The notes under the pieces were generated by a model. The model ran no database searches. It had not been told where the DNA came from and saw only the letters and a program-made list of their open reading frames with translations. Below are positions 34,267 to 37,384 of a DNA stretch of 64,000 nt, in pieces (the first letter of the stretch is position 1; each line of letters starts with the position of its first letter). Source of the stretch: Acidimicrobiaceae bacterium (GTDB lineage: Bacteria > Actinomycetota > Acidimicrobiia > Acidimicrobiales > RAAP-2); contig PMLJ01000034.1 in the NCBI GenBank assembly GCA_003158855.1, positions 62,001-126,000 of the forward strand. Direction: 5' to 3'. Both the position numbers and the translations under genes were made by a program.

Positions 34267-35424
34267 CTAGCGCAACGGACTCGAGCCGGCGAGTCCAAGC
34301 AGGTCCCGTGAGACGAAGAGTGACGCGGGCTGACCGGCGGTCTTGCGCGAGACCGTCCCCTGTTCAGTGAGGATTCCGACACGGGCTAGACGGTGGAGGG
34401 TTGCCAAGGAGGCCTTGCGGGAGATCTCAAGTTCGTCGGCAAGTATTTGGGAGGTGAGGACGAGATGACGAGGAAGCAGATCGAGCGCTGCAAAGACCGC
34501 AGCGTCGCTGCGGGGCTTGCGATCACCGGCCACGAGCCGATCGCGCCACTGCTGCTTGATCTGTTCGACGTTTGAGATCAGTGCACGCTGGGCCCTGCCC
34601 CCACTGGCCACCGCGTCAGCGAACCACGTGATCCACCTGCGATGATCGCCTAGTCGGAAGAGCACCAGGCCCGAGGAGTAGCCAGCGACGTCGGCGGCGA
34701 TCGCCACGCTTACTGGCGGAGGCACGAGGAGCGCGAGCCGTCGGGTCAGCACCCAGGCTACGAGCACCCGGCCTATTCGGCCATTGCCATCACCGAAGGG
34801 ATGGATGATCTCGAACTGCGCGTGGCTGATCGCGGCTTGGGCGACCGGGTCGACGTCCACGCGGCTCACGTAGGCGATGAGGTCGTCGAGCAGCGCCGGG
34901 AGCGCACCGGGAGGAGGCGTCACGAGGTGCGCGTCGAGCGGACTCGTCCCCCCGATCCAGCCCTGCTCGTTCCTTATCGCCCCGACGTAGCGCTCGGGAG
35001 TCGGGCTTCGCGTCATGAGGGTGCGATGCCACTTGCACAGCGTCTCGATCGAGAGCGCTGCACCTCCTTCGGCGCTGGCTACAGCTTCGGAGACAGCCGC
35101 CAGGTTGCACGCCACCCATGCGGCGGCTCCTGCCCCTTGTCGGCCGAGTTGCTCCTCGGCGAGGACTACGTCGACAACAGGAGCGGTGACGCCCTCGATG
35201 TACGAAGAGGCGACACCCTCTGAGCGCAGCAGGAGCCGCGCGAGGGGTTCGTAGTCGCTGTCCAGCGCCTCTGCGGCGTGAGCGACTTCGGTGGCCGCCG
35301 CTGCGGACCTAGCGGCGGTGGGCGCGTCGAGCGTGAGTTCACGGTCTTTCAGGAGGGCCGGCACGAAGGCGAGGATCCTCCGTCCGTTCCAGACGACCTC
35401 AACTTCGGACCCAGACGATTCCAA
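34267..35424 (-). CDS. Fic/DOC family protein
   Basis: Fic motif HPFGDGNGRIGR; SSYIEG inhibitory-helix-like motif; C-terminal winged-helix-like region. Confidence 0.92.
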   Translation of the reverse strand: MESSGSEVEVVWNGRRILAFVPALLKDRELTLDAPTAARSAAAATEVAHAAEALDSDYEPLARLLLRSEGVASSYIEGVTAPVVDVVLAEEQLGRQGAGAAAWVACNLAAVSEAVASAEGGAALSIETLCKWHRTLMTRSPTPERYVGAIRNEQGWIGGTSPLDAHLVTPPPGALPALLDDLIAYVSRVDVDPVAQAAISHAQFEIIHPFGDGNGRIGRVLVAWVLTRRLALLVPPPVSVAIAADVAGYSSGLVLFRLGDHRRWITWFADAVASGGRAQRALISNVEQIKQQWRDRLVAGDRKPRSDAAVFAALDLLPRHLVLTSQILADELEISRKASLATLHRLARVGILTEQGTVSRKTAGQPASLFVSRDLLGLAGSSPLR

Positions 35425-35624
35425 GGTCTCTCCCTCAATAAGTTACCAATAACAGTGTACCGGTAATGTATTCGCACACAATCGGTATTTGCTGAGGATT
35501 CTGTGTTGCTGTGAGGGTTTCGCTGCGTGTTCCGAGGGATTCGGATCGACAGGCCTGCATGCATTGCTGCGGCCGCCAGTGCAGCGCTGGAGCGGATGAC
35601 TCGTGGACCAGCGCTCTGATGAGC

Positions 35625-35658
35625 AGGACTTGTCCTACTCAGAAACGCGCAGGCATGA
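35625..35658 (+). repeat. Left terminal inverted repeat of a 1.33-kb segment
   Basis: aggacttgtcctactcagaaacgcgcaggcatga; reverse complement matches 36913-36949. Confidence 0.75.
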
Positions 35659-35666
35659 CCCCCGGG

Positions 35667-36719
35667 TCAGCGAGCGGCGAAGTGATGTGCCACCGCGGCG
35701 AACGCCTCCTTGGGCTCCCAAGGCATGTCCGGATAGACCATCCCGTGGCGCCCGTCGGGCAAGGACTTCACGAGGGACATCGAGTCCATGTCGAGGTCGT
35801 AGCGAGGATCGCCGTCGGTATGGGCCCCGGGAGTCACGAAGGTCGACAGCAGGGCACCGGCCACTCCGGAGCGTTCGAGTTCGTCGAGGGTCTCGGCGAG
35901 CTTGCGGGCCTGCATGGCTTCGTCACGCTGAAATGTCCCCTTCAGGCGGAGCCGGAAGAAACGCCCGATCACCGGTCGCGTGTGAAGCCACAACCGGGTG
36001 GTGTCGGTGACCCCGAACCCCAGGGTGCCAGAGCTCTCGGCACCGCGGTAGGTGCGCATCCCGAACTCGGTGACGATCACCGGCTTTCCCGTTGACAGGA
36101 AGGGTTGGAGCATCTCGACGTAGCGGTCCTTGGTCCGGGCTTCGCGGTAGTGATCGACACCCACGTAGTCGAAGGGCCCCCAGTCCACCTGCTCGAAGAC
36201 GAGCGAGGCGTAGGTAAGCGGGCCGCCGAACACGGCGCGCAACCTGGGGATCAGGTCAGCCAGGTACTCATCGAGCTTCCCCTTTCCGAGCAGCGACGGA
36301 TCTCCTTTGAGGCGTTGTAGGCGCTCCGTCACGCTCTTGCCGGCGACCAGGCCCTGCATGAAGAGCGTGAGTTCGCTTCCGGCGACGAAGACGATACGCC
36401 CCGGGTGGGCCGTCGACAGCGGTGCTGCCGACTCGGCAGCTGCGACCATTCGGGACGTAGTCTCCTCCGGCGTGTACTCGAAGAAGGCCGGGGAGAACCA
36501 CACCTCGAGCCCGAGGCCGAGTGCGATCTCTGCGACAGCCGTGATCCGTCCCACGTCACTACCCACGACCCGCACGGCGTTGGCGTGCAGGTCGTCCCGG
36601 ATGATCTCGAGCTCTCGCCGCACGACCGACATGTCGAGTTCCGCCCGGCGCGTCGAGATGGCATACCCGGGGCCCCGGAAGATGGTCCCCGTGTCGTAGT
36701 GAACTCCCTGGTGCTGCAC
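35667..36719 (-). CDS. TIM-barrel glycoside-hydrolase-like protein
   Basis: WGPFDYVGVDHYREART...GKPVIVTEFGMRTY (clan A GH-like strand motifs). Confidence 0.65.
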   Translation of the reverse strand: MQHQGVHYDTGTIFRGPGYAISTRRAELDMSVVRRELEIIRDDLHANAVRVVGSDVGRITAVAEIALGLGLEVWFSPAFFEYTPEETTSRMVAAAESAAPLSTAHPGRIVFVAGSELTLFMQGLVAGKSVTERLQRLKGDPSLLGKGKLDEYLADLIPRLRAVFGGPLTYASLVFEQVDWGPFDYVGVDHYREARTKDRYVEMLQPFLSTGKPVIVTEFGMRTYRGAESSGTLGFGVTDTTRLWLHTRPVIGRFFRLRLKGTFQRDEAMQARKLAETLDELERSGVAGALLSTFVTPGAHTDGDPRYDLDMDSMSLVKSLPDGRHGMVYPDMPWEPKEAFAAVAHHFAAR

Positions 36720-36912
36720 GTCGCCTGGATCCTGGCGCCCTAAGACGTGCGGAACATGTCGCAGGGCCCCATCGGCATGGACTGATCGTGGAGGGCCCGG
36801 CCTCGTGCACAGCAGTCCGCGCTCGCCTTGTCTTCAAGTCTCGTCATGAATTCGACCATAGCGAAGTTGGTTATCGGCTCCAGTTGCTCGCCCGGGTCCG
36901 CCGCTCTGGGAT

Positions 36913-36949
36913 GTCATCCGGGCGCGTGTTTCTGAGCAGGACTTGTCCG
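36913..36949 (-). repeat. Right terminal inverted repeat of a 1.33-kb segment
   Basis: Reverse complement cggacaagtcctgctcagaaacacgcgcccggatgac aligns with the left TIR. Confidence 0.75.
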
Positions 36950-37012
36950 GCTGCGTGGATACCCCTCCAGGAAATCAGCTGGTCAGAGGGGTGAGAGCAT
37001 GAACACAACATC

Positions 37013-37384
37013 TTGTGGGTCGCGCGATTAAGGGGACAGCCCTTTGAATCCGCACCTTATTGCCCTCCACGAGCCACAGAGTCTGTCAACCACGGTTCTC
37101 ATTTTGGCGAGGTCCTCGCCAGCTACATCGGTCGATTTCGGACTCAATTGGTCAGTATCAACCAGAATCTCCACCAAACGCCGAACCTTCCTCTTACGAA
37201 GCGCGCACCACTCAGCTACAGCGGTGTCATGCCGGCTCGGACCACGATGTACCAGACGACGATCTGTCGTCACTGCACTAGTGAGGACGAAGCGATTGCC
37301 CAAATACGAAAGACCGTTGTTCACGAAGTCGGGCATCACTTCGCCATCGGCGATCCCCGGCTCCAGGAGTTGGGCTGGGCGTAG
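37013..37384 (+). pseudogene. Zincin-like (PF06262-type) metallopeptidase, possibly 5'-decayed
   Basis: C-terminal MYQTTICRHCTSEDEAIAQIRKTVVHEVGHHFAIGDPRLQELGWA is canonical; the N-terminal half is not recognisable. Confidence 0.5.

Follow-up and report, generated by a model that had tools for sequence, protein, structure and literature searches.

A glycosidase-like gene between worn inverted repeats in an Acidimicrobiaceae genome: probable remains of a mobile insertion cassette

Based upon the repeats and genes at one locus in a 64,000-nucleotide stretch of Acidimicrobiaceae DNA (the window), we propose, at a probability of about 0.55, that a segment between a Fic-family gene and a zincin-like metallopeptidase gene (Table 1) is a mobile insertion cassette (MIC) in a state of decay, its cargo gene being mobile. 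A passenger gene for a glycosidase-like protein would have arrived between the ends of a genus-wide repeat family, A* (GGGGTATCCA), in a cassette that could formerly have been moved by a transposase supplied in trans. Wear of the left end, together with insertion of a second element, B, and partial deletion at the right, would then have removed any target-site duplication, and the worn cassette is probably immobile now. Our confidence is limited because the duplication and the left outer end are both absent.

Table 1. Coordinates of the features at the locus (window positions) and of the T2 copies in other genomes (positions within each locus)
Feature	Position	Strand	Remarks
Fic-family gene	34267..35424	-	left neighbour of the site, conserved in G126; match there extends to 35622
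Left arm	35622..35650	+	G126 homology ends exactly at 35622
Cargo gene	35667..36719	-	350 aa, relative of PDB 7y4h 'AcvX'
Right arm, full extent	36908..36965	-	reverse complement GGGGTATCCACG...TCCTGCTCAGAAACACGCG...CATCCC; encloses 36924-36952
Right end of transposon family B	37085..37189	+	outer end 37189; other end missing from window
Zincin-like metallopeptidase gene, 5'-truncated	37190..37384	+	cut by B end; intact in G126, 137 aa
T2, L069	556-1894
T2, L135	~1740-2480
T2, L136	2314-3054
T2, L138	106-11058
T2, L070	end near 1345

The initial annotation had marked 35621-36950 as a segment with the size and layout of an insertion sequence, bounded by inverted repeats, and the repeats proved to be real. 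The two arms (the left one and 36924-36952) are 29 nt long and 83% complementary, with inner edges 1273 nt apart; local alignment of flank against flank scored 16.5, the best of 300 shuffles reaching 15.5, and a longer arm-versus-arm alignment scored 23.9, a value that 2000 shuffles approached to at most 19.1. Of the small palindromes reported in both arms, the left is near-perfect over 22 bp (TGAGCAGGACTTGTCCTACTCA), whereas in the right arm palindromy is confined to the inner part. The right boundary also required correction, since that arm reaches 36965, beyond 36950, and some ~12-16 bp at the outside of the left arm (the GGGGTATCCACG part) are missing. The segment contains no transposase, and neither edge shows a target-site duplication (35622 on the left, 36950 or 36965 on the right), so that IS-like size and layout alone do not define an element. 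A reading of the segment as an intact element is accordingly not supported: it has no duplication, its left outer part is absent, its right arm is itself element-like, and a B end lies just beyond. An intact insertion sequence was rejected because a transposase is absent between the repeats and there are no other copies in the genome. An integron cassette was rejected on the orientation of the arms, which are mutually inverted; inspection of the segment by eye revealed no attC-type boxes.

The stop codon of the cargo gene, said to abut the left repeat, is in fact separated from it by some 11-16 nt. This position, directly ahead of a 22-bp near-palindrome, would suit arms that serve the gene as palindromic operators or terminators and have nothing to do with mobility. 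However, a T-run is absent, folding does not clearly surpass that of shuffles, the orthologs of the gene lack arms of the window type, and the right arm has a transposed miniature element as its relative. Both the terminator and the operator reading were rejected on the folding and on the absence of arms from orthologs, and we regard this explanation as very unlikely; arms kept with the gene in vertical descendants were not seen.

The closest relative at the locus, genome G126, matches the window at 87% through the Fic side up to 35622, and the match restarts at 37190 with 92%. The intervening 1.57 kb thus differs between the two genomes, and the site is a variable stretch between the Fic gene and the zincin gene. 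The left arm starts precisely where this synteny breaks, which speaks for a MIC. On the other side, the 5' part of the zincin gene is missing and the B end extends up to 37189, so the right flank of the segment is not ancestral. Across the genus B ends are met repeatedly, frequently in inverted pairs, and complete B copies with 8-bp duplications occur elsewhere, one of them (L076) in the own genome. Perhaps the gene is the cargo of a B-type transposon ending at 37189, of which the left B end has been deleted, the A-type repeats being incidental. Among the B copies that lack a transposase there are indeed some whose ends enclose one or two genes and which show perfect 8-bp duplications, as in L077 (1.34 kb); the span from 35622 to 37189 would be 1.57 kb. 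We nevertheless consider this improbable, as a left B end was not found, B elements showed no ortholog of the gene and the arms would go unexplained.

The B transposon of the own genome (L076 6203-15365, contig 11 about 169203-178365) measures 9.16 kb, has the 8-bp duplication TAATTGGA, and carries type III restriction-modification genes, a DEDDh exonuclease and a 530-aa transposase-like protein for which there was no Pfam or NCBIfam match. Among the B cassettes without a recognised transposase we found RhuM-Fic (PADLOC PDC-S23; L077 6012-7355), a DUF6036 nucleotidyltransferase with an HTH protein (L079 1956-3701) and an HTH-containing gene pair (L078 634-2348), cargo that is toxin-antitoxin-like or defence-like.

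All genomes compared are draft assemblies, that of the window (2.7 Mb in 50 contigs) being 96.5% complete and 2.5% contaminated. In this genome the repeat core occurs only at the two places in the window. An exact scan for the core returned one unrelated Bradyrhizobium match among GTDB representatives and zero matches in viral contigs; when 2 mismatches were allowed, 150 family genomes yielded scattered single matches, and pairs nowhere outside the window. The motif TCCTGNTCAGAAACNCGCG, with one mismatch allowed, is present in the window and twice in G126, and nowhere else among 99 genus genomes.

In G126 this motif sits inside an element of 88 bp, bounded by the inverted ends GGGGTATCCACGTCACCGCCAC...GATGGCAGTCAGATGGATGCCCC. 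The first copy is intact, has the orientation of the window's left arm, and lies 16 bp past the Fic flank at the site orthologous to that arm, where the cargo gene is absent. In the second (contig 20, L204) the ends are inverted and flanked by the perfect 8-bp duplication AATTTGAA. Read inward from 36965, the right arm is identical to the element in 12/12 bases of GGGGTATCCACG and keeps the internal motif; the alignment of the two scored 20.8, a value reached by 0/2000 shuffles (<=15.7). These alignments identify the right arm as a worn relative of the 88-bp element. The left arm alone matches it weakly, at a score reached by 28/2000 shuffles, and is probably what truncation has left of a miniature element, or of a cassette end, of the GGGGTATCCA type (A*).

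A search with the pattern GGGGYATCCAYSTSACYGCCAC, allowing up to two mismatches, gave 44 hits in 23/99 genomes (1 with the reversed control pattern), many of them inverted pairs 0.1-1.8 kb apart. Across the genus A* ends bound many transposase-free, mostly single-gene cassettes of 0.4-1.8 kb. Perfect 8-bp duplications, two bases off GGGG/CCCC, were located at L204 (the 88-bp element), L238, L242, L287, L288 and L291, the last being a 125-bp element which, like the 88-bp one, has inverted ends, an 8-bp duplication and no coding capacity. Cargo includes DUF402, SIMPL (twice) and DUF4143 AAA proteins, a membrane or secreted protein (twice), and GNAT in three copies, one confirmed by Pfam and two assigned by likeness. 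No transposase was recognised in these cassettes, the B/T2 transposase family having been tested for and others judged from the ORFs, and they fit the working definition of a MIC in PMC3913671: inverted repeats, no transposase and usually a target duplication. No autonomous A* element was found, and the B/T2 Zn-finger DDE-like transposase did not lie near the A* ends examined; we infer that a DDE transposase acting in trans would be the mobilising enzyme. The initial annotation had proposed a search for further copies of the repeats, especially near a transposase. Relatives do exist in the genus, but there are none in the own genome besides the window arms. The outcome that would have spoken against a cassette, namely repeats occurring nowhere else around a gene conserved in place, was not observed.

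These miniature elements raise the question of whether two independent MITE-like A* relics flank the gene in opposite orientation by chance or later insertion, the gene having arrived by a different route and the arms never having moved it. The right arm looks like a short element that is complete at both ends, and it may stand on its own as a miniature element instead of forming the end of a cassette; G126 has a gene-less 88-bp element at the left-arm site; and the DNA in common with a copy of the gene in another family (G502) covers 35661-36789, stopping inside the arms and omitting both. On the other hand, the orientation and spacing are exactly cassette-like, and elsewhere the gene is found in repeat-bounded cassettes. 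The absence of A* from the rest of the own genome cuts both ways: it weighs against a MIC, and it also makes two copies around one gene by chance unlikely. On balance we think a pair of unconnected relics, the main rival, less likely than the decayed cassette, and for the latter we infer that it was the two arms by which the present gene copy was moved.

The cargo ORF has a GTG start at the start position of its homologs and no internal stop. Its product resembles PDB 7y4h 'AcvX' in full-length homology (E 4e-67) and in keeping both putative catalytic glutamates, and differs from it in that identity is 44%. E116 (GxE) and E218 (TEFG) are invariant across five sequences, and their settings are those expected of a retaining GH-A glycosidase, a clan in which the acid/base and nucleophile glutamates follow strands 4 and 7 of a TIM barrel. 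The family profile produced only weak sequence matches to GH5-type glucanases; Pfam, NCBIfam and PADLOC returned nothing significant for the 350-aa protein, and structure prediction from the single sequence gave a pLDDT of 39. Our best guess from sequence comparison is that the protein is probably a glycosidase-like TIM barrel, and the earlier view of the single ORF as glycosidase-like and not a transposase is upheld. dN/dS was 0.11-0.30 in all comparisons, by which measure the gene is under purifying selection. The family is present in several actinobacteria, and a plasmid record names one actinobacterial relative 'abortive infection protein', a putative label only. No paper on AcvX was found among the literature searched, and the family appears uncharacterised. 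No relatives of the gene were found in viral contigs, for which reason a virus-borne gene was rejected.

The gene is present in a minority of the family genomes (10/150). In G128 its ortholog makes up the whole cargo of a 1339-bp element (L069) beside tmRNA, with CTAGTTCGGYTTTAAGRCAC ends and the perfect 9-bp duplication GAAGTGGAG. In G108 a segment of the G128 type is inverted beside tmRNA and is 90% identical, versus 73% for the flanks. The G101 ortholog is likewise the sole cargo of a 1529-bp element (L065), which has GGGGTGTGCACGTAAGT ends and a perfect 5-bp duplication, TTCGT, and is situated beside tRNA-Met. The suggestion of a non-autonomous mobile cassette with a passenger gene thus survives as regards the gene, which in the sister genomes G128 and G101 lies alone between inverted repeats with perfect duplications. 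The copy in G502 is 85% identical, and its dS to the window gene is 0.28, versus 0.79-1.00 for copies of the same genus; this lower dS to a genome of another family, taken with the dN/dS values, indicates horizontal transfer of the gene under selection. Around the G502, G091 and G145 copies no inverted repeats above shuffle level were detected.

T2, a repeat family whose ends are of the CYAGTTCGGCTTTAAGGCAC type, sits at most 4 bp away from the tmRNA 3' end in 5/5 genomes with a readable neighbour, shows 9-bp duplications in L069 and L136, and is apparently a tmRNA-targeting inverted-repeat transposon. Its 10.95-kb copy, L138, contains a Zn-finger DDE-like transposase, interrupted and akin to the one in the B element, and further exonuclease-, helicase- and nuclease-like genes. 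The ends of a family T3 (GGGGTRTGCACGTAAGT) are a few bases from the tRNA-Met 3' end in both genomes (L065 100-1628; L140 317-335).

MICs are known chiefly from Bacillus and from a small number of resistance plasmids. A genus with many short cassettes that have ends in common and differ in cargo, and in which one cargo recurs between end types by tmRNA and tRNA genes, would be a natural system for gene capture by transposase-free cassettes, and would let one ask which enzyme moves them. Because the cargo is mobile, it becomes a testable idea that it acts in defence or competition. As a tentative extension, the genus may keep a trans-mobilised pool of short transposase-free cassettes on several end types (A*, B, T2 and T3), with some cargo, this glycosidase-like gene for one, switching end type and the window containing one transfer product.

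Among known systems, the MICs, such as MIC231 of Bacillus cereus, which is known to be mobilised in trans (cited in PMC3913671), and mic-qnrD (PMC3913671), are alike in having inverted repeats around one or more passenger genes, no transposase, a length of 1-2 kb and, in intact relatives, duplications. They are unlike the present case in that the window copy has neither a duplication nor full ends and the same cargo is associated with different end types between genomes. Bacterial MITEs are comparable to the 88-bp (G126) and 125-bp (L291) A* elements, which are non-coding and have inverted ends and 8-bp duplications, and one of which the right arm resembles, whereas the larger A* members carry whole genes. 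As with integron gene cassettes, single and varied accessory genes move without a recombinase of their own; here, however, inverted repeats and target duplications replace attC, there is no integrase and the arms are inverted. The pool of trans-mobilised cassettes that we tentatively envisage would be a transposon counterpart of integron cassettes.
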